Shown here: piece by piece, positions 977-15,984 of the stretch
How the letters are laid out: every line of letters begins with the position of its first letter
Position numbering within the stretch: the first letter of the stretch is position 1
Assembly (NCBI RefSeq): GCF_017916425.1
Contig: NZ_JAFMSX010000001.1
Coordinates: 248,001 to 312,000, forward strand
Source: Nocardioides sp. SYSU D00065
GTDB lineage: Bacteria > Actinomycetota > Actinomycetes > Propionibacteriales > Nocardioidaceae
Reading direction: 5' to 3'
DNA: 64,000 bases
Position numbers and translations under genes: made by a program
The notes under the pieces: generated by a model
Seen by the model: only the letters and a program-made list of their open reading frames with translations
What the model was told of the DNA's origin: nothing
The model's database searches: none

Positions 977-1066
977 GCCTGTCGATTCGGCCGCGGCGTG
1001 ACCGCCCGTGTGACAGGCTGGGGCCGGTGCCTCGAGACGGTGGGGTGTTCGCGTCGCGCGCGGAGG

Positions 1067-3199
1067 ATGGACTCGTTGCCCCCAGGAGCTTTCGACCCGG
1101 CTGTCGGTGACCCGTCGGACCGTACGTCGGACACGGCGTCGATCCTCGGCGCGGCGTCCGACCGGATGGCCTGGCGCCTGGCTGTCGACGCGGCCGGCGT
1201 GGGCGCCTTCGTGTGGGACCTGGTCGCCGACGACCTGCGCTGGGACGGCCGGCTGATCGAGCTCTTCGGGCTCGACGAGGAGTCCTTCGGCGGCACGATC
1301 AAGGACTTCAACAGGCTCGTCCACCCCGACGACCTGGCACGGGTGAGCGACGCCCTCCAGCGCGCCATCGACACGTGCGGCGACTACCACGCCGAGTATC
1401 GGATCGTGCAGCCCAGCGGCCACGTGCGCTGGATCGAGGCCCGCGGCCGGGCGTACGGCGAGCACCCCGGCGGGCAGGCCGTCCGGCTCGTCGGGGCCGC
1501 CTACGACACCACCGCGGTCCGCGACGGCGAAGCCCGGATCGGGCGCGTGCTGGAGTCCATGTCCTCGGCGTTCTTCCAGCTGGACGAGGACTGGCGCTTC
1601 ACCTACGTCAACTCCGAGGCCGAGCGCCTCCTCGGCGCCGGCCGGGCCGATCTCTTCGGCCAGTCGATCTGGGAGGCCTTCCCCGCGGCGGTGGGAAGCC
1701 CCTTCGAGGAGCACTACCGCGGCGCCGCCGCGACCGGGCAGCCGGTGTCCTTCGAGGCGTTCTACCCGCCTCCGCTGGACGCGTGGTACGAGGTGCGGGC
1801 GTGGCCCTCCCCCGAGGGCCTGGCCGTCTACTTCGTCGACATCACCTCGCGGCGCGAGGCCCAGGACGCCCTGGACCGAGCGGCTCGCCGCCTCGCGCTG
1901 CTGGCCTCGGTGTCCGAGTCGCTCACCAGCACGCTGGACCCCACCGAGGGCGTGAGCCGCCTGGCCACCCACCTCGTCCCGGAGGTCGGCGACTGGTGCC
2001 TGGTCACCCTCGTCGAGGACCCGCACGCCTCGGACTGGCGGCGCGGGCTGCGCGACGTGGGCTGGTCGCACCGCGATCCCGCACTCGAGGAGACGCTGCG
2101 GCTCTACGCCGCCCAGCGGCTGCGCGCCATGACGGACGCCTCCTATCTCGCCCGCACGATCCGGGACATGACACCGGTGCTCATGGAGTCCGACGCCGCC
2201 GAGCAGGTCGCCGCGGTGCTCGTGCCGGGGCGGGCCCGCGAGCTGCTGAGCGAGCTCGACCCGGCCTCGGCCGTGATCGTGCCCCTGCGCGCGCGGGGGC
2301 GCACCGTGGGCGTTGTCAGCGTCTTCCGCGGCGCCGGGCGAGCTGCGTACACCCGCGACGACGTGGTGCTGCTCGAGGACATCGGCTCCCGCGCGGCGCT
2401 GGCGCTGGACAACGCCCGCCTCTACGCCTCCCAGCGCGACGTGTCGGAGGCCCTGCAGCGCAGCATGCTGACCGAGCCGCCCCACACCGACGAGCTCGAG
2501 ATCGTCACCCGCTACGCGCCCGCCGGCGAGGCGGCGCGCATCGGGGGCGACTGGTACGACGCGTTCCTGCAGCACCGCGGCCCCGCAGGCTCCTCCCCCG
2601 ACGTCGTGGTCGTCGTCGGGGACGTGGTCGGGCACGACGTCGAGGCCGCGGCGGCCATGGGCCAGGTCCGCGGACTGCTGCGCGGCATCGCGGTGCACAG
2701 CGGAGACGCACCGGCGGCGATCCTGTCCGGGGTCGACGCCGTGATGGAGTCGCTGCGGCTGGAGACGACCGCGACGGCCGTCGTGGCCCGCTTCGAGCAG
2801 GTCCCGGGCACGCGTGAGCGCGTGCTGGTCCGCTGGTCGCACGCCGGGCACCCGCCCGCTCTGCTCGTCAGCGCCGACGGCGAGGTGACCGCTCTGGCGG
2901 ACGTGACGGCCAACGACCTGCTGCTGGGCCTGGATCCCGCCACGCCTCGCGGCGAGCGGTCCACCCTCCTGGAGCCCGGGGCGACGCTGTTCCTCTACAC
3001 CGACGGGCTGGTCGAGCGCCGCGGCCGCGACATCGACGCCGGCGTGCGTGCCCTGGCCGCCCGGCTGCGCGAGATCGCCCCGGAGGCGCCGGAGCTCGAC
3101 GTCATGTGCGACCTGCTGCTCGAGGAGATGATCGGCGACAAGCCGGAGGACGACGTGGCGCTGCTCGCGGTGCGGCTGCGCGGGACTCAGGTGTTGTAG
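1067..3199 (+). CDS. PAS/PAS/GAF sensor with C-terminal SpoIIE-type PP2C phosphatase
   Basis: Soluble sensor phosphatase of the RsbU/RsbP class, expected to dephosphorylate anti-sigma-factor antagonists or related partner-switching proteins. In order: a first PAS fold (VGAFVWDL..., about residues 30-140), a second PAS (LESMSSAFFQLDEDWRFTYVN at about 165), a GAF domain (about 270-450) and a SpoIIE PP2C domain (about 470-705) with metal-binding acidic motifs in GGDWYDAF, VVGDVVGHD and the terminal EDDVALLAVR. There is no membrane segment and no RsbW kinase module. The start is uncertain: GGAGG directly abuts the ATG at 1067, so TTG 1076 is possible, and the frame stays open back to GTG 998. No partner anti-sigma gene lies nearby. 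Confidence 0.88.
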   Translation: MDSLPPGAFDPAVGDPSDRTSDTASILGAASDRMAWRLAVDAAGVGAFVWDLVADDLRWDGRLIELFGLDEESFGGTIKDFNRLVHPDDLARVSDALQRAIDTCGDYHAEYRIVQPSGHVRWIEARGRAYGEHPGGQAVRLVGAAYDTTAVRDGEARIGRVLESMSSAFFQLDEDWRFTYVNSEAERLLGAGRADLFGQSIWEAFPAAVGSPFEEHYRGAAATGQPVSFEAFYPPPLDAWYEVRAWPSPEGLAVYFVDITSRREAQDALDRAARRLALLASVSESLTSTLDPTEGVSRLATHLVPEVGDWCLVTLVEDPHASDWRRGLRDVGWSHRDPALEETLRLYAAQRLRAMTDASYLARTIRDMTPVLMESDAAEQVAAVLVPGRARELLSELDPASAVIVPLRARGRTVGVVSVFRGAGRAAYTRDDVVLLEDIGSRAALALDNARLYASQRDVSEALQRSMLTEPPHTDELEIVTRYAPAGEAARIGGDWYDAFLQHRGPAGSSPDVVVVVGDVVGHDVEAAAAMGQVRGLLRGIAVHSGDAPAAILSGVDAVMESLRLETTATAVVARFEQVPGTRERVLVRWSHAGHPPALLVSADGEVTALADVTANDLLLGLDPATPRGERSTLLEPGATLFLYTDGLVERRGRDIDAGVRALAARLREIAPEAPELDVMCDLLLEEMIGDKPEDDVALLAVRLRGTQVL

Positions 3200-3336
3200 C
3201 GCAGCAGCGAAATCACGCCGAAGATCAGCGCGATCAGCACGAAGAGCCCGATGACCGCGAGGACGGGGGTCACCTTCGGGCGCGGCCCCGGCGCGTTGAG
3301 AGGCTGGTTGGTCGTGGGTCGCTCACGCTCGTCCAT
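3187..3336 (-). CDS. Small single-pass membrane protein (49 aa)
   Basis: A 49-codon frame begins at ATG 3336 with a hydrophilic N-terminus (MDERERPTTNQPLNAPGPRP), followed by one clear membrane segment (TPVLAVIGLFVLIALIFGVI) and the tail SLLRYNT. Codon third positions are strongly G/C as in neighbouring genes. It lies 28 nt downstream of the FAD/TPR gene on the same strand and overlaps the 3' end of the convergent phosphatase gene by 13 nt. The upstream hexamer TACCGC sits 6 nt before the ATG, so it may be leaderless or co-transcribed. Orientation is likely N-in by charge. Function unknown. Confidence 0.6.
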   Translation of the reverse strand: MDERERPTTNQPLNAPGPRPKVTPVLAVIGLFVLIALIFGVISLLRYNT

Positions 3337-3364
3337 GCTGCGGCGGTACCCCCCAGGATGCGGC

Positions 3365-6184
3365 TCATGCGAGCCCCGGGGCGCCGACCGCGGCGCGGCC
3401 GAGCGAGGCGCGGCGCCGGCCGTCGAGGGGTGAGGGGCGGCGGTCCAGGCGGGCGTCGAGCAGGGCGGCGGCCCGCTCCGTCTCCCCCTCGTTGACCAGG
3501 CACAGCAGCAGCGTTTCCTCGACCACCTCGCGCTGCGCTGCCGAGCCCCCGACCCGCACGAGGACGGGCAGCAGCTCGGAGAGCAGCGCTGCCGCGTCGG
3601 CCCAACGGTCCTCGAGCACCGCCACCAGCGCGTCGCAGACGCCGGCCACGACCGTACGCATCGTGCTGTCGCCGGACCGGCGGCAGTGCCCGGCCAACCT
3701 CGCGACCCGGGTCGCGTCGCCGCTGCCCGCCAGGGCGAGGGCGGCGTGCAGGGCGACGAAGGGCGTCTGCGGCTCCTCCACGAGCGAGTGCTCGACCGCC
3801 GCCAGCACCGCCTCCATCGGGGGCGGGGGCGCCTCGGCGGGGACCGAGCCCGGTGGCACGGCTGCGGGCCAGTCGGTCGTCGTCATGCGCCAGCGCCACA
3901 GCAGCGACGCGGAGTCGACGAGGGTGCGGACCCCGGTGACCGTCGGCGGGGTGAGCTGGGAGTAGTAGCGGCGGCGTACGGCCTCGGTGTCGCCGAGGGA
4001 CAGCTCGTGCAGAGCGGCGTGCCACGAGAAGTGCGCGCGGTGGCTGGCCGAGCGTCCGCTCTCGGTGACCCAGTGGTCGAGCCACACGCGGCCGGTCTCG
4101 TGCTGGCCGGTCTCGTAGAGGACGTGCGTCTGGGCGTGCACGGCGTGGCCCGACGACGGCTGGCACGACAGCGCGCTCTCGGCGAGCAGACCTGCCTCCT
4201 CCCACCGTGACTGGTCCTGCCGGGTGAAGGCCAGCAGCGAGATGTACCACCAGTGGTCGCCGTAGGCCGGGGCGAGCCCCTCCACGAGGTCCCAGGCCTC
4301 GCGCTGCACGTCGGTGACACCCGAGAAGGCGATGGTCGGCACCGCGGCCGAGACGGCCAGCACGTCGCGAGGGTGCCTCGCGATGTGGCTCATCAGGGCC
4401 TGCGCCCCGCTGCGTCGCACGTCGGCGACGCGGCGGCCCACGACGTCGACGAGGCTGCGCTCGCGGTCGTCGCCACGCCGCCGCACGGCCTCGCGGGCCG
4501 CCTGCAGCGAGCCCGCCACGTCGGCCGCGGCACCGGCCTCGTGCCCCAGCATCGCCAGCGCCGCGTGGGCCAGGGCAAAGTCGGGGTCGAGGGTGGCCGC
4601 CTCCCGCAGCAGGTCCTCGGCGCCACCCTGCAGCAGCATCAGTCGCTCCAGCCCGGCGTTGTACGCCGTCGCGGCCTCCGCCGTCGTGGAGATCGGCAGT
4701 CCGAGCGGGTCGCGCGGACGGGCCACCGGGTGGTGTCCGCTGACCAGGCGGCCGTCGGCGAGGCGACGCGGTTGTGGGGCCAGTGCGTCGAGCACCGCGG
4801 TCGCCACGCCCAGCGCCTGCGCGCGGATCTCGGGGACGGCGGTCGACTCCCACAGCTCGCCGCGACGCAGGGCGCCGAGCGTCCACAGCGGCGCGTCGGT
4901 GCCCCCGGCGGCGTCCACGACCCGCCCGTCGACCGTGCGCACGCCCATGCCCGCCGTCGCCACGACGGCGAGCGCCGAGCCGCCTCGAGGACGGAGCAGG
5001 TCGTCGAGGAGCGGGTTCTGGAGCCGGCGCACGTCGGACTGCGGGCCGGTGCAGTTCACCACCCAGCCCACCTCGCGCACGGAGCCGTCGGTCAGCTCGA
5101 CCTCGAGTCCCCCGCGCGCGAGCGGCCGGGCGGCGACCACCGTGCCTGCCGAGACCCGCAGTCGGTCCTCGGCCTCCAGCGCGTCGAGACGCACGCGGCT
5201 CGAGGGAGCCATCCGGTGGCGGTGCAGGCCCCAGCGCGCGGCGTCGCGGGACAGGAACTCGGCCCGGTCGCTCTCGGACAGGCGCTGCCACAGCTCGCTG
5301 AGACGGAACCGCAGCCCGTCCACGGCCGGGCGCCAGTCGCCGGTGGCCGCACGGACGTCCGCGACGTGCCGCTCCGCCCGTGCCCGGACCTCGTCGAGCC
5401 GGCCGCCCCAGTCCGAGACGTCCGGAATGGCGGCGAGCCGCTGCTCGGGCGCGTGGGTGCGGGGCAGCAGGCCGCGGCGACTCACCGCGTGGATGACGCG
5501 GTCCGCGGGACCTGCGGCGGTGAGGGTCAAGGTGACGTCGACCATGGTGAGTCCGGTGCCCACCAGCAGGACGTCGCGCGGGCCGGTCCGGTCGCGCCGC
5601 ACGACGTCGAGGGCTCCGGACGCCCACGGGTCGGGGACGAAGAACGGCGAGGCGCGCAGCTCCTCGACCGCCCACTCCGTGCCCGCCTCGGGCAGACCGG
5701 TGGCGACGACGACGGCGTCGGCGTCGAGGGGACGTCGCGCCCGGACCGCGACCCGCAGCCCGCCGGCCGTACGCTCCACCCCGACCGCCGTGTCGCGGAC
5801 GTGCCGCAGCGACACGTCGCCGAGCGTCGTGCGCAGCGCCTCGGTGAGGCTGTCGTCGAGGTAGCGGGCGAACTGGGCTCGCGGGGCGAAGTCGTAGGGC
5901 AGGGACGGCCGGTCCGGCTCGTCGCGGGCACGCCAGGCGACGAAGTGACCGGGGTCCTCGGGCAGCACGCTCATCCCCGAGGCCGGAACGTTGAGCAGGT
6001 GCGAGGCGTCGTACGTCCCGAACGCGACGCCGCGCGCCAGCCGGTCAGCCGGGTCGACGACGGTGATGTCGAGGCCGGCGGCCCGGCGGCCGGCGACCCG
6101 GACGAGGTGCAGGGCGGTCAGGGAGCCTGCCGCCCCGCCGCCGACGATGACGACGGAGGGACGACGCTCTCGCGGTGTGCTCAT
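3365..6184 (-). CDS. FAD/NAD(P)-binding protein fused to a TTC38-like TPR domain
   Basis: One uninterrupted 939-aa frame with two family-sized halves. Residues ~1-475 are a flavoprotein: N-terminal Rossmann motif VVIVGGGAAGS, the FAD_NAD(P)-binding family motif HLLNVPASGMSVLP, a second dinucleotide site VLLVGTGLTMVDV, VVNCTGPQSDV, and the typical end GELWESTAVPEIRAQA. Residues ~485-939 resemble tetratricopeptide repeat protein 38: LPISTTAEAATAYNAGL at its start, VHAQTHVLYETGQ, HFSWHAALHELSLGD, and VRVGGSAAQREVV near the end. The ATG at 6184 is preceded by AGGAG with 8 nt spacing, so the in-frame Met 45 nt upstream is unlikely. It lies 105 nt downstream of cysA on the same strand, which hints at a sulfur-related role. 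No biochemical role is known to me for this pairing. Confidence 0.88.
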   Translation of the reverse strand: MSTPRERRPSVVIVGGGAAGSLTALHLVRVAGRRAAGLDITVVDPADRLARGVAFGTYDASHLLNVPASGMSVLPEDPGHFVAWRARDEPDRPSLPYDFAPRAQFARYLDDSLTEALRTTLGDVSLRHVRDTAVGVERTAGGLRVAVRARRPLDADAVVVATGLPEAGTEWAVEELRASPFFVPDPWASGALDVVRRDRTGPRDVLLVGTGLTMVDVTLTLTAAGPADRVIHAVSRRGLLPRTHAPEQRLAAIPDVSDWGGRLDEVRARAERHVADVRAATGDWRPAVDGLRFRLSELWQRLSESDRAEFLSRDAARWGLHRHRMAPSSRVRLDALEAEDRLRVSAGTVVAARPLARGGLEVELTDGSVREVGWVVNCTGPQSDVRRLQNPLLDDLLRPRGGSALAVVATAGMGVRTVDGRVVDAAGGTDAPLWTLGALRRGELWESTAVPEIRAQALGVATAVLDALAPQPRRLADGRLVSGHHPVARPRDPLGLPISTTAEAATAYNAGLERLMLLQGGAEDLLREAATLDPDFALAHAALAMLGHEAGAAADVAGSLQAAREAVRRRGDDRERSLVDVVGRRVADVRRSGAQALMSHIARHPRDVLAVSAAVPTIAFSGVTDVQREAWDLVEGLAPAYGDHWWYISLLAFTRQDQSRWEEAGLLAESALSCQPSSGHAVHAQTHVLYETGQHETGRVWLDHWVTESGRSASHRAHFSWHAALHELSLGDTEAVRRRYYSQLTPPTVTGVRTLVDSASLLWRWRMTTTDWPAAVPPGSVPAEAPPPPMEAVLAAVEHSLVEEPQTPFVALHAALALAGSGDATRVARLAGHCRRSGDSTMRTVVAGVCDALVAVLEDRWADAAALLSELLPVLVRVGGSAAQREVVEETLLLCLVNEGETERAAALLDARLDRRPSPLDGRRRASLGRAAVGAPGLA

Positions 6185-6289
6185 GTCTCGGGCTCCTGCT
6201 GAGGTGGGTGGGTGCCGGGGTGCTGGCACGGGTTGGTGCCGTGGTCGGTGGCGTGGGTGGTGGCGGGGTTGGCTGCGCCGCAGCGCGGC

Positions 6290-7276
6290 TCAGCCGGCGG
6301 TCAGCACGGCCGGCATGGCCGGCACGGTGGTCGCGCCGTCGGCGGCGGTGAGCCAGACGGCCATCCCCTCGGTGAGCTGGAGGCTGCGCGCGTGCGTACG
6401 GGTGACCTCGACGGTCACGACCTCGCCGTCGTCGGTCAGCACGGTGAGGCGGACCTCGAAGCCGATGCGCTGCACGCGCGAGATGCGGCCCTCGACGGAG
6501 CCGGCCAGGGTGGGACCGAGGCCGATCTCGATGTCGTGGGGACGGATGCGGCGACCCGCCAGCGTCGTGACGTCGCCGAGGAAGCCCATCACGAACTCGT
6601 TCGCCGGGGCGTCGTAGAGCTGGTCGGGGGTGCCGACCTGCTCGACGCGGCCCTCGTTGACCACGACGATCTCGTCGGCGACCTCGAGGGCCTCCTCCTG
6701 GTCGTGGGTCACGAAGACGGTCGTCACGTGCACCTCGTCGTGCAGCCGCCGCAACCAGTCGCGCAGCTCCTTGCGGACCTTGGCGTCGAGCGCGCCGAAC
6801 GGCTCGTCGAGCAGCAGGACGCGTGGCTCCACCGCGAGCGCGCGGGCGAGGGCCATCCGCTGGCGCTGGCCGCCTGAGAGCTGCGAGGGCAGCCGGTGCG
6901 AGAACTGCTGCAGGTGCACGAGCCGGAGCAGCTCGTCGACGCGCTCGGCGACCTCGGCCCTGGGCCGCTTGCGGATCTCCAGGCCGAAGGCGACGTTCTT
7001 GGCGACCGTCATGTGCTTGAAGACGGCGTAGTGCTGGAAGACGAAGCCGACGCCCCTCTTCTGCGCGGGGAGATCGGTGGCGTCCGTGCCGTCGATCTCG
7101 ATGCGCCCGGAGTCTGCGGTGTCGAGCCCGGCGATGATGCGCAGCAGGGTCGACTTGCCGCCGCCGGACGGGCCGAGCAGGGCGGTCAGCCCGCCCGCCG
7201 GGATGGACACGGAGACGTCGTCGAGGGCGACGAAGTCCCCGAACCTCTTGGTGACGTGGGAGATGTGGATGCTCAT
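6290..7276 (-). CDS. cysA: Sulfate/thiosulfate ABC transporter ATP-binding protein
   Basis: Cytoplasmic ATPase driving sulfate uptake with CysT/CysW. 328 residues: Walker [11 protein letters not shown]-loop [13 protein letters not shown], signature [15 protein letters not shown], Walker B VLLLDEP, switch His in [11 protein letters not shown], then a C-terminal TOBE-like regulatory domain (from about residue 235). QHYALF/KHMTV-type sequence and the permease context identify it as CysA rather than a sugar or molybdate importer ATPase. The ATG at 7276 overlaps the cysW stop (ATGA) and is preceded by GAGGAGG. Last transporter gene of sbp-cysT-cysW-cysA. Confidence 0.94.
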
Positions 7277-8109
7277 CGGGGCCTCCTCGGGGAGCCGGTG
7301 GGAGCGGAGTGCTGGGGACGGAGGAAGGCGACCACGACCAGGCAGGCGATGCTCACCAGGATCAGCAGGAACGACGTCGCGTAGGCGGTGTCCTGTTGGA
7401 AGTTCTGGTACTTCGCCTCCACGACGAGCGTCGCGGTCTGGGTGCGGCCGGTGATGTTGCCCGACACGATCTTGACGGCGCCGAACTCGCCGATCGAGCG
7501 GGCCAGGCTGAGCACCACGCCGTACACGACGGCCCACTTGATGCTGGGCAGGGTGATCCGCCACAGCGTCTGGGGCCCGCTGGCGCCGAGGCTGCGGGCC
7601 GCCTGCTCCTGGTCGTCGCCGATCTCGGTGAGCACGGGCACGACCTCGCGGATCACCAGGGGCAGGGCCACGAAGCAGGTCGCCATGATCATGCCGGGCG
7701 AGTCGAAGATCAGCTGCAGGCCGTTGGCCTCGAGCGTCGGCCCGAACCACCCGGTGCGCCCGTTGTAGGCCAGCAGGAGGGCCAGCCCGACCACCACCGG
7801 GGACACCGACAGGGGCAGGTCCACGAAGGCCGAGAGCACCCGCTTGCCCGGGAACTGGTGGCGCACGAGCAGGATCGAGATCGTCACGCCGAAGACCAGG
7901 TTGATCGCGACCGCCCACAGGGCGACCACCGCGGTCAGCTGGAGCGCTCCGGTCACCTGCTCGTCGGCCAGCGCGTCGGCGAGGGTCGCGAATCCCCCGG
8001 CGAAGGTGTTGCGCACCAGCAGCCCGACCGGCCAGGCCACCAGCAGGAACACGTAGCCGACCGCGACAATGCGCAGCAGCCAGCGCATGGCGGGAGGTGG
8101 GCTCACCAT
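7273..8109 (-). CDS. cysW: Sulfate ABC transporter permease CysW
   Basis: Inner-membrane subunit, 278 aa, with about six transmembrane helices and the cytoplasmic EAA coupling loop ([32 protein letters not shown] region, about residues 165-195). The motif [18 protein letters not shown] is typical of CysW. Its ATG overlaps the cysT stop by 7 nt and its stop overlaps the cysA start by 4 nt, so all are coupled. The start at 8109 gives [14 protein letters not shown]; an internal ATG (MRWLL) is an alternative six codons later. Confidence 0.93.
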
Positions 8110-8996: not shown

Positions 8997-10040
8997 CTAC
9001 TCCTCGCCCACCTTGCCGGTGCTCTGCTGCAGCTCGGTGATGATGCCGAGGGGATTGCCGTCCTCGCCGTCTCCGAAGAACTTGTCGGCGGCGACGTCCC
9101 AGCCCTCGAAGTCCTCCTCGATGGTGAACAGCTTCGCCGGGGTGGGGAACGGGTCGGCGGGGTCGTTGGCGCCCTCCACCTCCTCGATCTCCACGCCGTC
9201 CACGACGGGGCGGAAGCCCGACTGCGCGTAGTCGGCCTGTGCCTCGGGAGACGTCATGAACTCGAGGAACGCCGTGGCGGTCTCGTCCGCCTCGGTCGTC
9301 ACGGCGGCCGGGTTCTCGATGAGCAGGGTGTCCTCGGGGACGACGTAGTCGATGTCGGCGCCGCTCTGCTTGGCGAGGATCGCCTCGTTCTCGTAGGAGA
9401 GCAGCACGTCGCCGCTGCCGTCGGTGAAGGCGGTGGTCGCCTCGCGGCCCGAGCCGGGCAGCGCGATGGTGTTCTCGAGCAGGCCGGTGACGAAGTCGCG
9501 GGCCTCGTCCTCGGTGCCGCCGTTGCCGGTCACGTGGGCCCATGCGGCGAGGATGTTCCACCGCGCGGAGCCCGACGAGCCGGGGTTCGGGGTGATGATC
9601 TCGACGCCGGGCTCGACGAGGTCGTCCCAGCCCTCGATGCCCTCGGGGTTGCCCTTGCGCACGACGAAGACGACCACCGACGAGGTGGCGATGCCCTGCG
9701 TCTCGGTGTCCGCCCAGTCCTCGGCCACCAGACCGGCGTCGACCAGACGCGTCACGTCGGTCTCGAGCGAGTAGTGCACGACGTCGGCGTCGGCACCCGC
9801 CTCCACCGCACGGCTCTGGTCGCCCGAGGCGCCGTACGACGTCTGGAACTCGGCGCCGTCACCGTCCGGCGTCCCCTGGAAGTCCTCGAAGACCGGCTCG
9901 TTGGCCGCCTCCATGACCGAGAACGCGTTGATGCTGACCGCCTCGCCGCCCTCGGCCGAGTCTGCCCCGGCCGTCGAACCGCACGCGGTCAGGCCCAGGG
10001 CCGCGACCGCGAGGCCCACCAGGAGTGTGCTCTTCTTCAT
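8997..10040 (-). CDS. sbp: Sulfate-binding lipoprotein
   Basis: Extracytoplasmic receptor of the sulfate importer (SubI/Sbp family), 347 aa. A lipoprotein signal MKKSTLLVGLAVAALGLTAC has its lipobox Cys at residue 20, so it should be membrane-anchored. Family signatures include FQTSYGASGDQSRAVEAGADADVV, NPGSSGSARWNILAAWAH and the C-terminal GFRPV segment. It is first in the operon with cysT, cysW and cysA. The leader upstream holds a good -10 (TATAGT at 10102-10097) and an imperfect palindrome. Regulation by sulfur status is expected from the gene set, but the regulator cannot be named. Confidence 0.93.
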   Translation of the reverse strand: MKKSTLLVGLAVAALGLTACGSTAGADSAEGGEAVSINAFSVMEAANEPVFEDFQGTPDGDGAEFQTSYGASGDQSRAVEAGADADVVHYSLETDVTRLVDAGLVAEDWADTETQGIATSSVVVFVVRKGNPEGIEGWDDLVEPGVEIITPNPGSSGSARWNILAAWAHVTGNGGTEDEARDFVTGLLENTIALPGSGREATTAFTDGSGDVLLSYENEAILAKQSGADIDYVVPEDTLLIENPAAVTTEADETATAFLEFMTSPEAQADYAQSGFRPVVDGVEIEEVEGANDPADPFPTPAKLFTIEEDFEGWDVAADKFFGDGEDGNPLGIITELQQSTGKVGEE

Positions 10041-10102: not shown

Positions 10103-10233
10103 GACGACTTTGACGCGGCGTGGATCCCGGGGCGCTCGGGCGTGTCGCCGCAAGCACGGCGGGCTCGCCGCGCGACCCGATGGAGGGCCGGTCGCGCGGC
10201 GCGCGAGAATGGGAGTGCGCACTGTCGCCGCGC

Positions 10234-10262
10234 TTGACTCGTTCGAACACGTGTTCGATCAT
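10234..10262 (+). promoter_or_regulatory. LexA (SOS) box and promoter of imuA'-imuB-dnaE2
   Basis: TCGAACACGTGTTCGA (10243-10258) is a perfect 16-nt palindrome matching the Gram-positive/actinobacterial LexA box (TCGAACRNRYGTTCGA). It sits between a -35-like TTGACT (10234-10239) and a weak -10 GATCAT (10257-10262) with 17 nt spacing, so bound LexA would block RNA polymerase. Six nt after the -10 comes the ATG of imuA' at 10269, so the transcript is predicted to be leaderless. Confidence 0.88.
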
Positions 10263-10268
10263 GGGAGC

Positions 10269-10934
10269 ATGTCCTCCGCCCGCTCCGTCGCTGCGCTCGA
10301 CCCCGGGCGTTCGGTGGTCGAGCAGCTGCGCGAGCGGGTCGCGGCCATGGAGCACAAGCCCGCCGCACAGGCCGTGCCCACCCTGCCCGGGCTCGCCGCC
10401 CTCGTGCCCCTGCACGCCGGTGCCACCTACGGGGTCGACTCCGCCTCGTTGGCGCTCGCCCTCGCGGCCGGCGCCTCACAGGCGGGCGAGTGGGTCGGCT
10501 TCGCGGGATGTGCCGACTTCGGGGTGGAGGCCGCGGCCGAGCTGGGCTTCGAGCTCTCCCGCACCGTGCTCGTGCCCGACCCCGGTGATCACTGGCTGGA
10601 GGTGGCGGCCGCGCTGGTGGACGTGCTGCGGGTCGTGGTCCTGCGACCGCCCGCGTCGGTCGACGCGCGGGCCGCGGGGGTCCTCGACTCGCGGTTGCGC
10701 ACGCGCTCGTCGGTGCTGGTGGTGCACGGCCACTGGCCGCGCGTCGCAGCCCGGTTGAGCGTCGAGGAGTCCTCCTGGACCGGTCCGACGTCCGGCGCCG
10801 GTCAGCTCCTCGAGCGTCGTGCCCGCGTCGTCGTGCACCGGGGAGCACGACCCCCGCAGCGCGCCGAGCTGACGTGGCCGGGAGTGCACCGGGCGGACCC
10901 GCAGGTCCACGAGCTCCGCCGGGCGTCGGGATGA
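10269..10934 (+). CDS. imuA': SOS mutasome accessory protein ImuA' (RecA-fold, degenerate P-loop)
   Basis: First gene of the SOS mutagenesis cassette; 221 aa. By analogy with mycobacteria it supports ImuB and DnaE2 in error-prone translesion synthesis. The RecA-like core is visible (GATYGVDSASLALALAAGAS, ...WVGFAGCADFGVEAAAELG), but the segment where a Walker A GKT/S should be reads GVDSAS, so ATP binding looks lost. I chose ATG 10269 because it lies directly after the SOS promoter; the longer open frame from 10110 would run through the LexA box. The stop at 10932-10934 overlaps an ATG that opens a 20-codon mini-frame ending at imuB. Confidence 0.85.
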   Translation: MSSARSVAALDPGRSVVEQLRERVAAMEHKPAAQAVPTLPGLAALVPLHAGATYGVDSASLALALAAGASQAGEWVGFAGCADFGVEAAAELGFELSRTVLVPDPGDHWLEVAAALVDVLRVVVLRPPASVDARAAGVLDSRLRTRSSVLVVHGHWPRVAARLSVEESSWTGPTSGAGQLLERRARVVVHRGARPPQRAELTWPGVHRADPQVHELRRASG

Positions 10935-10989
10935 GCGCCACCGGGCGCCAGGCTCGGGCTGGGGGGGACGAGGGCACGGTGAGCCGCCG

Positions 10990-12558
10990 GTGAGGGTCAT
11001 GGTGGTCTGGTGCCCGGACTGGTCGGTGGTCGCCGCCCTGGAGGAGGCCGAGGCGTCACCGCGCTCCCCCGCCGCGGTGCTCAGCGCCAACGTCGTCGAG
11101 GTCTGCAACGGCCCTGCCCGGTCCGAGGGCGTACGACGCGGACAGCGCCGCCGCGACGCCGAGGCGCGTTGCCCCGGCCTGCTGGTGCTGCCCACCAACC
11201 CGGACCGCGACGCCCGCGCCTTCGAGCCGGTGCTCGCCACCGTGGAGGACCTGCGCCCGGGCGTGGCGTCGTTGCGGCCCGGGCTGCTCGCCGTCCGGGC
11301 CCCGGGCAGCTGGTACGGCACCGAGGAGGAGGCCGCCGCGACGGTGTGCCAGGCCCTCGTCGAGACGGGCGTCTGGGACGTCCGGATCGGCATCGCCGAC
11401 GACCTGTTCACGGCCGAGCAGGCGGCCCGGACCGCGAAGGTGCAGTCGTGGGAGGTCGTCGCAGTCGGAGGGTCGGCGCCGTTCCTGCGCGGCCTGCCCG
11501 TGCACGTCCTCGAGGGCGACGGACCGCAGGGGCGCGAGCTGGTCAGCCTGCTGCAGCGGCTGGGCCTGCGCACCTTGGGCGACCTGGCCGACCTTCCGGG
11601 GGCGGCCGTCGAGCACCGGCTGGGGTTATACGGCGCCGAGGTCCGGCGACGCGCGCGCGGCGAGGACGCCGCGCTGTTCGGCGCGCGCACCCCGCCGCCG
11701 GAGCTCGATGCGGAGGTGGCGTTCGAGCCGCCGCTGGACTCCGTCGAGGCGATCACCTTCAGCGTGCGCACCACCGCGGAGCGGTTCGTCACGCAGCTGG
11801 CGCACCACCAGGTGGTGGCCACCGGGGTCCGCATCGAGGCCGAGGCCGAGGGCGCCGTCTGCTCGTCCCGGACCTGGCTGCATCCTCGGCACTTCTCCGC
11901 CCGTGACCTGGTCGACCGGGTGCACTGGCAGCTGCAGTCCTCGACCGTCGGCGGTTCGCTGCGCTCGGCCAAGGACTCCGGTGCGGTGCGCGCCCCGATC
12001 GACCGGGTGAGGTTCCTGCCCGAGGTGGTCGAGCCCGCGGCCGCTCACGGCGAAGCACTGTGGGGGGCGGCCTCCGACGACCTCGTCGAGCGCGGCGTCG
12101 CCCGGATCCAGGGCATGGTCGGGTTCGACGCCGTGCGCCGGCCGGTCCTGCAGGGCGGGCGCAGTCCCTCCGCCCGGCAGTCGCTGGTGCCGTGGGGCGA
12201 GCGCCCTGTCGACCTGCGCCCCCTCGACCGGCCCTGGCCGGGCCGGGTGCCGGGACCGGCCCCGGTGCGGGTGTTCGCGACGCCGCCGGCGGCCGAGGTC
12301 GTCGACGACGCCGGCCGCGAGGTCCGCGTCAGCGACCGCGGGGTGGTCACCGGCGAGCCCCGCCGCTTCCGGGTCGGGGGCGGGGTCCTGCCGTGGCAGC
12401 CGGTCACCGCTTGGGCGGGGCCGTGGCCCACTGACGAGGGCTGGTGGGCGGACGGGGTCGGCCTGAGCGCCCGCTTCCAGGTCGTCGGCGCCGACGGGCG
12501 AGCCTGGCTGCTGCTGCGCGCGCCGGACGGCTGGTCCCTGGAGGCCGGCTATGACTAG
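10990..12558 (+). CDS. imuB: ImuB, catalytically dead Y-family polymerase homologue
   Basis: 522-aa Y-family fold protein that in mycobacteria acts as an adaptor between the beta clamp, ImuA' and DnaE2. The polymerase carboxylates are missing: the first motif, normally FxDxD, reads VVWCPDW, and the SIDE motif reads SLRPG. The little-finger and long C-terminal regions are kept. Start: GTG 10990, overlapping the mini-frame stop (GTGA); ATG 10999 three codons later is an alternative. The C-terminal ~150 residues are specific to ImuB-type proteins. Confidence 0.92.
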   Translation: MRVMVVWCPDWSVVAALEEAEASPRSPAAVLSANVVEVCNGPARSEGVRRGQRRRDAEARCPGLLVLPTNPDRDARAFEPVLATVEDLRPGVASLRPGLLAVRAPGSWYGTEEEAAATVCQALVETGVWDVRIGIADDLFTAEQAARTAKVQSWEVVAVGGSAPFLRGLPVHVLEGDGPQGRELVSLLQRLGLRTLGDLADLPGAAVEHRLGLYGAEVRRRARGEDAALFGARTPPPELDAEVAFEPPLDSVEAITFSVRTTAERFVTQLAHHQVVATGVRIEAEAEGAVCSSRTWLHPRHFSARDLVDRVHWQLQSSTVGGSLRSAKDSGAVRAPIDRVRFLPEVVEPAAAHGEALWGAASDDLVERGVARIQGMVGFDAVRRPVLQGGRSPSARQSLVPWGERPVDLRPLDRPWPGRVPGPAPVRVFATPPAAEVVDDAGREVRVSDRGVVTGEPRRFRVGGGVLPWQPVTAWAGPWPTDEGWWADGVGLSARFQVVGADGRAWLLLRAPDGWSLEAGYD

Positions 12559-12588
12559 GCAGTCGGCGACGAGACCGGAGACCCGCTG

Positions 12589-15500
12589 ATGGGCTGGAAC
12601 AACCCCGCGATGCGGTGGAAGGAGCTCGAGCGCCGGCTGAGCGGCCTGCCCGGGGCCGACGACGCGCCGGTGTCGCGCCGCAAGCGGAGCGCCACCACGG
12701 CGCGACCGATCGCTCGCCCGGACGCGGTGACGCCGTACGCCGAGCTCCACGCCCACAGCCACTTCAGCTTCCTCGACGGGGCCAGCTCCCCTGCCGAGCT
12801 GGTCGAGGAAGCGGTGCGCCTGGGCCTGCACGCGCTCGCGGTCACCGACCACGACGGGTTCTACGGCGCCCCGATGCTGGCCGAGGCCGCGGCGGCCTAC
12901 GACCTGCCCACCGTCTTCGGCGCCGAGCTGTCCCTGGGGCTGACCGCGCCCCAGAACGGGGTGCCGGACCCGGAGGGAAGCCACCTGCTGGTGCTGGCGA
13001 GGGGCGTGGAGGGCTATCACCGGCTCGCCGCGGCGATGACCGATGCGCACCTCAGAGGGAACGAGAAGGGGCGTCCGGTCTACGACCTCGACGAGCTGGG
13101 TGAGCGCGGACGCGGTCACTGGGTGGTGCTCACGGGCTGTCGCAAGGGTGCGGTCCAGCAGGCGCTGGCCCGCGGAGGCCCGGGCGCGGCGAGCGAGGCA
13201 CTCGACCGGTTGACGTCGGTGTTCGGGCTCGAGCACGTCCTCGTCGAGCTGTCCCCGCGCCCCGGCGCCGACGCGACCAACGCCGCGCTGGCTCGACTCG
13301 CGGGCGACCACGACCTCGACGTGGTGGCGGCCGGCAACGTGCACCACGCCACCCCGCACGGACGCCGGCTCGCCTCGGCGATGGCTGCGGTGCGCGCGCG
13401 CCGCAGCCTCGCCGAGCTCGACGGCTGGCTCGACCTGTCGGGCTCGGCCCACCTGCGCAGCGGTGCGGAGACAGCCGCCGCGCTGGCGGCGTACCCCACG
13501 GCCGTCGCGCGCAGCGTCTCGCTGGCCGACGAGCTGGCCTTCGACCTGCGCAAGGCCTCGCCCGCACTGCCGAAGCAGCAGATCCCGGAGGGACACACCG
13601 CCGACTCGTGGCTGCGGGTGCTCGCCGAGCGCGGCTTCGAGGAACGCTACGGGGGCGTGCCGCACGAGCGTGAGGCGCGCGAGCGTCTCGAGCACGAGCT
13701 GCGCGTCATCGCCGAGAAGGACTTCGCCGGCTACTTCGTCATCGTCCACGACATCGTCGCCTTCGCGCGACGGAGCGGGATCCTGTGCCAGGGGCGCGGC
13801 TCGGCGGCCAGCTCGGCGGTCTGCTACGCCCTCGGCATCACCGCCGTCGACGCCGTCTTCTACCGGCTGCCGTTCGAGCGCTTCATCTCCGCCCACCGCG
13901 ACGAGGAGCCCGACATCGACGTCGACTTCGACTCCGACCGGCGTGAGGAGGTGATCCAGTGGGTCTACGACACCTACGGACGCCGCAACGCCGCCCAGGT
14001 GGCCAACGTCATCTCCTACCGGCCGCGGATGGCGGTGCGCGACGCCGCCAAGGCGCTCGGCTACTCCCCCGGGCAGCAGGACGCCTGGTCCAAGCAGATC
14101 GACGGCTGGACGTCCGTGGTGGCCGGCGACATGGGCGACGCGGCCGCCCACGACGTCCCCGCGCCGGTGGTGGCGCTGGCCGAAGAGCTGTTGGGGGCTC
14201 CCCGACACCTGGGCATCCACTCCGGCGGCATGGTCCTCACCGAGCGGCCGGTCGGTGAGGTCTGCCCCATCGAGCGGGCCCGGATGGACCAGCGCACCGT
14301 GCTGCAGTGGGACAAGGACGCCTGCGAGTCGATGGGGCTGGTCAAGTTCGACCTGCTCGGCCTCGGCATGCTCGGCGCGCTGGACCACATGATGCGGCTG
14401 GTCGACGACCACCTGGGCGAGCGGTGGGACCTCGCGACGATGCCCAAGGAGGAGCCGGCCGTCTACGACATGCTGTGCCGCGCCGACTCGATCGGGGTGT
14501 TCCAGGTCGAGAGCCGTGCCCAGATCGGCACCCTCCCGCGACTGCGACCGCGCGAGTTCTACGACCTGGCCATCGAGATCGCCCTCATCCGCCCAGGCCC
14601 GATCCAGGGCGGGGCCGTGCACCCCTACGTGCGTCGCGCCACCGGGCAGGAGCCGGTGACCTACGACCACCCGGAGCTGGTGCCGGTCCTGGAGCGCACC
14701 AAGGGGGTGCCGCTCTTCCAGGAGCAGCTGATGGCGATGGCCGTCACCCTGGGCGACTGCAGTCGCGACGACGCCGACCTGCTGCGCCGCGCGATGGGCT
14801 CCAAGCGCGGCGTCGAGCGCATCGAGTCGGTCAAGCAGAAGCTCTACGCCGGCATGCGACGACGGGGCATCACCGGCGAGCTGGCGGACTCGATCTACGT
14901 CAAGATCCTGTCCTTCGCCAACTTCGGCTTCGCCGAGTCGCACGCCCTCTCCTTCGCGCTGCTGGTCTACGCCTCCTCCTGGTTCAAGCTGCACTACCCG
15001 GCGGCGTTCCTGGCCGGGCTGCTGCGCAACCAGCCGATGGGGTTCTACTCACCGCAGTCGCTGGTCGGCGACGCGCGGCGCCACGGGGTCGACGTACGCC
15101 GTCCCGACGTCACCCGGTCCGCCGCGCAGGCCGAGCTGGAGGCGGTGGTGACCGGCCCCGTCGCGGCCACGGGACTGGACGCCTGCTGTCGGCCCCGGTT
15201 CGCCCGCACCGAGTGGGTGCCCGGGACACCCGACCCCGTCCCGGCACACCGGCGCGACGGGGCGCTCGCGGTCAGGCTCGGGCTCGACTCGGTGCGCGGC
15301 ATCGGCCTCGACGTGGCGCGCCGCATCGTCGCCGCCCGCGACGAGGCGCCGTTCACCGGGGTCACCGACCTGTCCCGCCGCGCCCGCCTGGTCCCGGCCC
15401 AGCTCGAGGCGCTGGCCACCGCCGGCGCGTTCGACGCGTGGGGGCTGGATCGCCGCGAGGCGCTGTGGGCGGCCGGCTTCGCGGAGAGCAGCGAGCACCT

Positions 15501-15984
15501 CCCCGGCACGACGCCGGCCCCGGCGGCGCCGCCGCTGCCCCGGATGAGCGAGCCGGAGGTCACACTTGCGGACCTCTGGTCGACGGGCGTCTCGCCGCAG
15601 CGGCATCCGCTCGAGCACCTGCGCGACGACCTGCGTCGCGCCGGAGTCCGCTCGGTCGCCGAGCTCGCGACCACCGACAGCGGCCGGCGCGTCCACGTCG
15701 GCGGGCTCGTCACCCACCGTCAGCGACCGGGGACCGCCGGCGGCGTCACCTTCCTCAACCTCGAGGACGAGACCGGCATGCTCAACGTGGTGTGCTCGGT
15801 CGGGGTGATGCGAGCCCACCGGCAGGCCGCCCGCAACCGCGTCGCCGTGGTGGTCCGCGGCAGGCTCGAGCGCAACGAGGGGGTCACCAACCTCGTCGCC
15901 GACCGCGTCGAGGGCCTCGACGTCGTCGTCCCCGGCGCGGGCGCGGTGCTGCAGGCGCACGCCTCGTCGCGCGACTTCCGGTGA
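12589..15984 (+). CDS. dnaE2: Error-prone DNA polymerase DnaE2
   Basis: C-family polymerase of the SOS mutasome, 1131 aa, cytoplasmic. Order: N-terminal PHP domain (LHAHSHFSFLDGAS at about 50), palm with the catalytic acidic motif EEPDIDVDFDSDRREEV (about 440), fingers including FQEQLMAMAVTLGDCSRDDADLLRRAMG, helix-hairpin-helix, and a C-terminal OB fold (VHVGGLVTHRQRP..., about 1030). It is shorter than the DnaE1 at 40.4-44 kb and ends soon after the OB fold, as DnaE2 proteins do. ATG 12589 has GGAG 8 nt upstream. Same strand as imuB, 30 nt gap, under the LexA box upstream of imuA'. Confidence 0.95.
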   Translation: MGWNNPAMRWKELERRLSGLPGADDAPVSRRKRSATTARPIARPDAVTPYAELHAHSHFSFLDGASSPAELVEEAVRLGLHALAVTDHDGFYGAPMLAEAAAAYDLPTVFGAELSLGLTAPQNGVPDPEGSHLLVLARGVEGYHRLAAAMTDAHLRGNEKGRPVYDLDELGERGRGHWVVLTGCRKGAVQQALARGGPGAASEALDRLTSVFGLEHVLVELSPRPGADATNAALARLAGDHDLDVVAAGNVHHATPHGRRLASAMAAVRARRSLAELDGWLDLSGSAHLRSGAETAAALAAYPTAVARSVSLADELAFDLRKASPALPKQQIPEGHTADSWLRVLAERGFEERYGGVPHEREARERLEHELRVIAEKDFAGYFVIVHDIVAFARRSGILCQGRGSAASSAVCYALGITAVDAVFYRLPFERFISAHRDEEPDIDVDFDSDRREEVIQWVYDTYGRRNAAQVANVISYRPRMAVRDAAKALGYSPGQQDAWSKQIDGWTSVVAGDMGDAAAHDVPAPVVALAEELLGAPRHLGIHSGGMVLTERPVGEVCPIERARMDQRTVLQWDKDACESMGLVKFDLLGLGMLGALDHMMRLVDDHLGERWDLATMPKEEPAVYDMLCRADSIGVFQVESRAQIGTLPRLRPREFYDLAIEIALIRPGPIQGGAVHPYVRRATGQEPVTYDHPELVPVLERTKGVPLFQEQLMAMAVTLGDCSRDDADLLRRAMGSKRGVERIESVKQKLYAGMRRRGITGELADSIYVKILSFANFGFAESHALSFALLVYASSWFKLHYPAAFLAGLLRNQPMGFYSPQSLVGDARRHGVDVRRPDVTRSAAQAELEAVVTGPVAATGLDACCRPRFARTEWVPGTPDPVPAHRRDGALAVRLGLDSVRGIGLDVARRIVAARDEAPFTGVTDLSRRARLVPAQLEALATAGAFDAWGLDRREALWAAGFAESSEHLPGTTPAPAAPPLPRMSEPEVTLADLWSTGVSPQRHPLEHLRDDLRRAGVRSVAELATTDSGRRVHVGGLVTHRQRPGTAGGVTFLNLEDETGMLNVVCSVGVMRAHRQAARNRVAVVVRGRLERNEGVTNLVADRVEGLDVVVPGAGAVLQAHASSRDFR

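Follow-up and report, generated by a model that had tools for sequence, protein, structure and literature searches.

Why should a bacterium carry a flavoprotein and a domain of the tetratricopeptide repeat (TPR) type on a single polypeptide chain? The question is raised by a gene of Nocardioides sp. SYSU D00065 that lies within a stretch of 64,000 nucleotides (RefSeq assembly GCF_017916425.1, contig NZ_JAFMSX010000001.1, positions 248,001 to 312,000), called here the window, in whose coordinates the features are given. A preliminary description of this DNA had proposed that a FAD/NAD(P)-binding flavoprotein is fused in one frame to a TTC38-like domain, for which it would serve as a redox partner, and that the preceding sulfate-uptake operon hints at sulfur chemistry. 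We find that the gene joins a known kind of enzyme to an orphan domain, a combination that is new and is conserved as a fusion; the reading that we put first, tentatively, is an N-oxygenase and a domain processing its product on the same chain.

The fusion gene

The gene occupies one frame on the minus strand, from ATG to TGA, with 939 residues and no internal stop, and in all nine blocks of 100 codons the third-position GC content stays at 0.91-0.95, which gives no sign of a change of frame. Its parts are the following:

3365-6184, minus: fusion gene, 939 amino acids, ATG at 6184, stop codon at 3365-3367
6193-6197, minus: Shine-Dalgarno-like AGGAG preceding the ATG at 6184
4775-6184, minus: N-half, residues 1-470, FzmM-like fold of a monooxygenase using flavin adenine dinucleotide (FAD) and NADPH, delimited by PF13454, profile, model and structural alignment
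4715-4774, minus: linker, approximately residues 471-490, of lower confidence in the AlphaFold2 (AF2) model, with a predicted local distance difference test score (pLDDT) of about 64
3368-4714, minus: C-half, residues 491-939, TPR-type superhelix (the TTC38-like domain of the preliminary description), delimited by model, fold matches and TPR_19 in relatives

Over the full length of the protein the AF2 model reaches a mean pLDDT of 91.6 and a predicted template modelling score (pTM) of 0.87. The statement that the only start backed by a ribosome-binding site lies at the N-terminus proved nearly exact: the ATG at 6184 has its AGGAG, but among in-frame starts at residues 440-520 one, ATG516, is preceded by GGAG, and it falls inside the C-half helix 502-517. 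The single frame, the even third-position GC content and the occurrence of the same fusion in other genomes bear out the one-frame arrangement, and the frameshift that could have joined two genes artificially did not materialize, as the fusion is found in 61 Nocardioidaceae and 26 Streptomyces genomes. The fusion is thus confirmed as genuine, due neither to chance nor to a frameshift. No description of it was found in the literature on TTC38, CreE/nitrosuccinate, PcxL and X-22162, and none was matched by COG4529 and PF13454 (most subscription papers fall outside this coverage).

Relationship of the N-half to N-hydroxylating monooxygenases

The N-half matches PF13454, as had been expected, over residues 12-163 (E 6.4e-35), a family to which FzmM presumably also belongs. 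Searching PDB sequences with a profile of 38 N-halves placed FzmM (8cp2/8cp5) first (E 5.8e-14), and VIA-align of the model likewise ranked 8cp5 first (Z 29.3, root-mean-square deviation 2.6, 445 residues aligned over model residues 8-469). The next other protein follows about 3 Z units lower and the remaining flavoproteins score Z 26.4 and below, including ornithine N-hydroxylases as well as flavin monooxygenases and folds like that of thioredoxin reductase.

Conservation was assessed in 70 rows representing 69 loci, the window gene being present twice (as WIN and L078). In the FAD fingerprint GxGxxG, G15 and G17 are kept in all 70 rows and G20 in 69; the second Rossmann motif, for NADPH, G209-x-G211-L212-T213, is kept in 69-70 of 70 and is modelled as a strand (205-209) followed by a helix (212-223). 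Between the two nucleotide domains lies a helical substrate domain (helices 263-338 in the model). Two features of this half stand out:

5990-5992, minus: Asn65, the counterpart in the alignment of FzmM Asn62, which faces the flavin, 70 of 70 rows (position counted by hand from the profile alignment)
5213-5335, minus: helical substrate-domain block W284-R324, with W284, R285, D289, R292, W299, F310, W318, R322 and H323 each kept in 70 of 70 rows

Like the N-half, FzmM (from Streptomyces sp. V2; 8CP2/8CP5; relatives CreE and PcxL) has a helical domain placed between Rossmann domains for FAD and NADP and carries the catalytic Asn, and it matches the model over the whole length. It differs in sequence (about 22% identity) and in that its aligned chain of 600 residues shows no TPR part in the match, its partner lyase being a separate protein. 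According to its structural report, FzmM is an L-aspartate N-hydroxylase in which Asn62 sits over C4a of the flavin, Arg13 holds the aspartate and Trp51 stacks on the flavin (PMC10404684). At the position of Trp51 (residue 55) the 70 rows have Phe in 52, Tyr in 18 and Trp in none, and at that of Arg13 (residue 19) Ala in 48, Ser in 12 and Gly in 10, the window protein having Ala19. By the anatomy of the model, the N-half is assigned to the N-hydroxylating class B monooxygenases as a predicted member. Because the aspartate-binding Arg13 is not kept, its substrate likely differs from that of FzmM, and judged by this position it would not be an aspartate N-hydroxylase. The designation "redox partner" was correct as far as a flavoprotein with PF13454 is concerned, but fell short, since the closest solved relative is an N-hydroxylating monooxygenase.

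Stand-alone relatives of the N-half were also seen in a pair of loci (L136/L135): in Azospirillum the gene adjoins an operon of an ATP-binding cassette (ABC) transporter and a TauD/TfdA dioxygenase, and in Gluconobacter it lies near a TDT-family transporter.

Invariant residues in the TPR superhelix of the C-half

The C-half of the window protein itself matched no Pfam family, and TPR_19 was matched by 26 of 45 relatives (members of alignment A1). Modelled alone, it forms a TPR-like superhelix (pLDDT 93.1, pTM 0.90), for which the 50 best rows of both Foldseek and VIA-align consist of TPR-containing proteins (best Z 16.1), including OGT and SPINDLY, enzymes that carry a TPR array; kinship of the C-half with an enzyme is conceivable. 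The TPR character suggested for this half therefore stands, on the model, the fold matches and the TPR_19 matches of relatives rather than of the window copy.

An alignment of 98 rows (97 loci, the window gene again entered twice) contains 18 C-half positions that are invariant in every row, even in L132 at about 28% identity: D492, A504, R574, E575, P605, D607, G622, H683, H687, H718, W721, H722, A724, L725, L728, D757, R764 and S881. Stand-alone bacterial relatives of the C-half share these residues. E691 varies once (97 of 98) and H600 twice. Many of the polar ones fall on three helices of the model:

4112-4138, minus: H683-x3-H687-x3-E691 on one helix (679-691); H683 and H687 in 98 of 98 rows, E691 in 97
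4019-4033, minus: H718-x2-W721-H722 on one helix (716-729); 98 of 98 rows each
3893-3916, minus: D757 and R764 on one helix (752-770); 98 of 98 rows each

These helices alternate with others in the model, like the inner helices of TPR units. The invariant His/Trp/Asp/Arg set looks more like an active site than like a scaffold, and the His, Asp and Arg residues may meet in one candidate metal-binding site. Because of its invariant polar residues we regard the C-half as a candidate processing domain.

Distribution of the fusion and of its separate halves

The relatives comprise the best 80 of 264 (77 loci), which with additional genome stretches amount to 127 loci; the target gene was called automatically in 120 (all but L037, L042, L047, L052, L058, L104 and L105), and removal of 11 near-copies left 109. 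Both halves occur in one frame in 46 loci of subfamily I (63-73% identity to the window protein) and in 10 of subfamily II (47-50%). The 46 include L032 in spite of its broken frame; the frame of L039 is also broken, L031 and L034 are contigs of N. jensenii that end within the fusion gene, and L037 and L038 have the N-half only.

Fused and separate genes were surveyed in 245 Nocardioidaceae genomes (cut-offs E 1e-30 for the C-half and E 1e-40 for the N-half). The C-half is matched in 113 genomes and the N-half in 112, and in 61 both lie at most 200 bp apart on one contig. The other 184 genomes lack the fusion: both halves are present but separate in 33, the C-half only in 19, the N-half only in 18 and neither in 114, which corresponds to an odds ratio of 11 (Fisher p 6e-11, a naive value that ignores shared ancestry). 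G160, counted among the 33, in fact has the fused gene interrupted by contig ends; leaving it out gives p 1.4e-10. The two unfused halves share a contig in 11 genomes, 0.37-2.1 Mb apart, and are on different contigs in the remaining ones; of the fused genomes, 1 of 61 has an extra N-half and 6 of 61 an extra C-half. The co-occurrence of the unfused halves supports a shared task.

In 199 Streptomyces genomes we found 64 C-half places in 59 genomes. The 28 strong ones (E < 1e-140, in 26 genomes) all abut an N-half, and every one of the 23 loci examined (20 and L128-L130) encodes both halves in a single open frame. The fusion is also present in the Kineosporia loci L018, L020 and L024, and two RefSeq Streptomyces plasmids carry it annotated as one protein, the plasmid relatives being mostly named "FAD/NAD(P)-binding protein", "FAD-dependent oxidoreductase" or "tetratricopeptide repeat protein". 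The other 36 Streptomyces places (E about 1e-37 to 1e-56) form a second, distant TTC38-like group; its sole copy that was read (L132, 6080-7867) keeps the histidines.

Trees were calculated by a quick search without bootstrap, leaving out L031, L034, L032, L039 and L027. The C-half tree resolves subfamily I as a single clade (Shimodaira-Hasegawa-like approximate likelihood ratio test, SH-aLRT, 98), and I and II group together with a support of 88. In the N-half tree L038 falls inside subfamily I, L108/L109 branch in the same clade (support 96), and L110-L113 are sister to it. As these N-only loci sit within or beside subfamily I, the tree suggests that the C-half was lost in some lines. When 12 N-only loci were searched with five C-half queries, nothing reached E 0.01, but the whole-protein matches of G191 and G085 continue past a stop as far as query residue 529, possibly a remnant. 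We also noted L075, recorded as Frankia sp. RB7, whose C-half groups among those of Bradyrhizobium, possibly due to mislabelling or transfer.

The sulfate operon and the sulfur neighbourhood

Upstream of the fusion gene, on the same strand, are the following genes:

6290-7333 (exact start uncertain), minus: CysA-type sulfate ABC ATPase, TIGR00968 above cut-off
7273-8106 (start approximate), minus: CysW-type permease, from its frame and from homologues that adjoin cysA and cysT in L001, L002 and L009
8103-8996, minus: CysT-type permease, TIGR02139 above cut-off
8997-10040, minus: sulfate-binding protein, TIGR00971 above cut-off

The fusion gene indeed follows this operon, 105 nt downstream of the CysA-type gene that ends it, and a search of 3150-6450 revealed no terminator-like site. 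The cysATW genes are present near the window gene and near 3 of 35 long fusion loci of subfamily I; they are upstream on the same strand, as in the window, only in L009, and four genes away on the opposite strand in the other two. Near other loci we found organosulfur-type genes, i.e. a SsuABC-like transporter, a SsuD-like or NtaA/DmoA monooxygenase, and flavin reductases, which make the sulfur hint stronger than cysA by itself would. Of the LLM proteins nearby, those of L015 and L037 satisfy the NtaA/DmoA model; the one of L008 falls short of the alkanesulfonate monooxygenase model (470 bits, cut-off 510), and the binding protein of L037 falls short of SsuA_fam (81 bits, cut-off 163.5). Such two-component systems (SsuABC/SsuD and NtaA/DmoA) share neighbourhoods with the fusion in some Nocardioidaceae, but belong to another enzyme class, using flavin mononucleotide and a separate reductase, and are absent from most fusion loci counted.

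In order to count sulfur neighbours (sulfate-transport, SsuABC-like and SsuD/NtaA-type genes) we applied fixed identity thresholds to whole stretches of approximately 13-16 kb. Subfamily I fusion loci shorter than 13 kb were left out, among them L078, the window's own locus, which leaves 35 of 46; L037, L104 and L105 were added by hand, and three distant N-only loci, none of them positive, were counted in neither group. The random controls are 40 stretches from ten fusion-carrying genomes (the first 40 of 44 drawn; L171 and L172 overlap). Sulfur genes were found at 7 of 35 long subfamily I loci and 3 of 8 near N-only loci, together 10 of 43, versus 0 of 63 controls: 0 of 40 random stretches, 0 of 13 fusion-II-type loci (ten Nocardioidaceae and three Streptomyces) and 0 of 10 loci of stand-alone C-halves. 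In a test devised after the genes had been seen, the enrichment has p 0.001 against the random stretches and 6e-5 against all 63 controls. The proposed link to cysA and sulfur chemistry thus survives in part: sulfate transport itself is near few of the loci, organosulfur-type genes accompany others, and neither is seen in subfamily II or Streptomyces. Because none of the 23 Streptomyces fusion loci (three of which are also among the 13) has sulfur neighbours, the sulfur clue applies to part of subfamily I only.

A proposed activity and its alternatives

Judged by fold and conserved residues, the N-half would bind FAD and NADPH, form a flavin hydroperoxide and oxygenate the nitrogen of a small, probably anionic, amine, in the manner of FzmM (aspartate) and PcxL (2-aminoethylphosphonate) but with another substrate. 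With less assurance, the invariant His, Asp and Arg residues on alternate, probably inner, TPR helices might form a catalytic site, probably with a metal, at which the C-half would process the unstable N-oxygenated product, taking the role that falls to a separate lyase in the hydroxylase/lyase pairs known so far. For some members of subfamily I, this product may enter sulfur assimilation or the breakdown of organosulfur compounds. FzmM and CreE are reported to make unstable nitrosuccinate, which a separate partner lyase consumes (PMC10404684), so a fused processing domain would be a simple reason for the architecture. An N-oxygenase with a product-processing domain is our best reading of the fusion, though we hold it with less than even confidence. 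A number of observations weigh against it. Flavin monooxygenases and thioredoxin-reductase-like proteins also reach Z 24-26 with the N-half, so the fold alone is no proof of N-oxygenation, and the Arg13 position of FzmM has changed. None of the 50 C-half fold matches listed per tool, all TPR proteins, points to the proposed catalysis, and E691 is Met in L132. The 37 genomes with a single half (19 and 18) show that each can occur alone, the association of the unfused halves takes no account of common descent, the 36 weaker C-half places of Streptomyces have no adjacent N-half, and in a phylum sample of 346 genomes the C-half was matched in 6 only, i.e. it is rare outside these groups. Sulfur genes are lacking at the Streptomyces and fusion-II-type loci, and five of the ten sulfur-positive loci supplied queries or nearly copy a supplier, without which the count is 5 of 38 versus 0 of 63 (p 0.006).

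The TPR-only nature of these matches would equally suit an ordinary scaffold that docks or positions a partner protein and leaves catalysis to the N-half, as would the existence of N-half-only relatives, some nested in or beside subfamily I (L038, L108/L109); we consider this unlikely in view of the 18 positions, with four His, a Trp, Asp, Glu and Arg among them, that do not change over 98 rows down to about 28% identity, an invariance unusual for a scaffold. The N-half might instead oxygenate or reduce a sulfur compound rather than an amine, the protein acting in sulfonate/sulfone or sulfite handling with SsuD- or NtaA-type enzymes. The 10 of 43 loci with sulfate uptake or Ssu-like/LLM genes against 0 of 40 random stretches speak for this, together with the two LLM proteins that pass NtaA/DmoA (those of L008 and the L037 binding protein being below cut-off) and the Azospirillum operon; yet sulfur genes are missing from 33 of the 43 loci, from 13 of 13 fusion-II-type and from 23 of 23 Streptomyces loci, and FzmM acts on an amine, which makes it a rather improbable account. 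That the sulfate operon is a chance neighbour of a protein unrelated to sulfur is possible, if somewhat doubtful: cysATW is near few fusion loci and, in two of three, distant and on the other strand, but at the same thresholds no sulfur gene at all appeared in the 63 control stretches (the test being post hoc, with several queries taken from these very loci). An assembly or frameshift artefact, finally, has next to no probability; single frame-broken copies (L032, L039) are all that was found in its favour, and it is rejected because 61 Nocardioidaceae and 26 Streptomyces species have the same fusion in their assemblies and the two plasmids have it as one protein.

Relation to TTC38 and significance

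The putative resemblance to TTC38/StaR-like TPR proteins (cd05804), taken over from the preliminary description, consists in the TPR-type superhelix; a difference is that those proteins are known mainly as stand-alone proteins. No family named after TTC38 is among the Pfam and NCBIfam matches of the fusion protein and its relatives. HxxxH and HxxWH motifs are typical of TTC38, and the four His and the Trp found in 98 of 98 rows of the relatives compared here may correspond to them. TTC38-like proteins are not known to have an assigned function, and no paper on TTC38 as a metalloenzyme is among the matches listed. Human TTC38 enters through panobinostat, a hydroxamate. This compound is reported to target or stabilise the human protein (PMC6885700, PMC9118197, PMC7666118), and variants of TTC38 have been linked to raised X-22162 (PMC5780481, PMC7878905). 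These data bear on the fusion protein only if it belongs to the TTC38 family.

A wider conjecture, which we consider distinctly unlikely, is that TTC38-like TPR proteins are metal-dependent enzymes acting on N-O compounds (hydroxylamines, oximes or hydroxamates), with the fused N-oxygenase making the substrate. If it were true, and human TTC38 were of the same family, this would account both for the stabilisation by panobinostat and for the raised metabolite X-22162 in people who carry TTC38 variants. With a conserved fusion, co-occurrence of the unfused halves and invariant His residues, the question of the orphan domain becomes a bench test with a defined enzyme pair. Such a pair would also bring a new kind of partner to the hydroxylase/lyase pairs with which bacteria make reactive nitrogen species.

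Other genes in the window and at related loci

In the window, positions 10110-15981 encode consecutively a 274-residue frame without a Pfam match, an IMS-family (Y-family) polymerase and a DnaE-type polymerase, probably a mutagenesis cassette of the imuA'-imuB-dnaE2 kind. Convergent to the fusion gene, at positions 998-3196, a gene encodes a PAS-PAS-GAF-SpoIIE phosphatase that is likely to act as a regulator.

Stand-alone C-halves have neighbourhoods of their own. In Pseudomonas oryzihabitans (L042, 1-7305) the gene directly follows a 2-aminoethylphosphonate cluster, in which phosphonatase, phnS2 and HpnW oxidoreductase models are above cut-off and PhnT2 (ATPase) just below; a role of the C-half with 2-aminoethylphosphonate was considered and dropped, its basis being this single locus. 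In Bradyrhizobium (L045, L053, L061 and others, up to 16 loci) the C-half is part of a conserved row that also contains genes for a 4HBT thioesterase, for an aldo/keto reductase and for a 242-residue protein without a Pfam match; most of these genes sit with the reductase and the thioesterase, and a SsuB-like/NMT1 transporter is found only beside L041. Stand-alone C-halves of Nocardioidaceae are found at a constant place close to uvrA and uvrC in 8 loci (L098-L103, L106 and L107).

Among the neighbours of the 23 Streptomyces fusion loci (cell-wall, sugar, AraC and Rrf2 genes) a common pathway was not found. A gene for a Rrf2-family regulator adjoins the fusion divergently in 5 of them (e.g. 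L192, 6912-7376).

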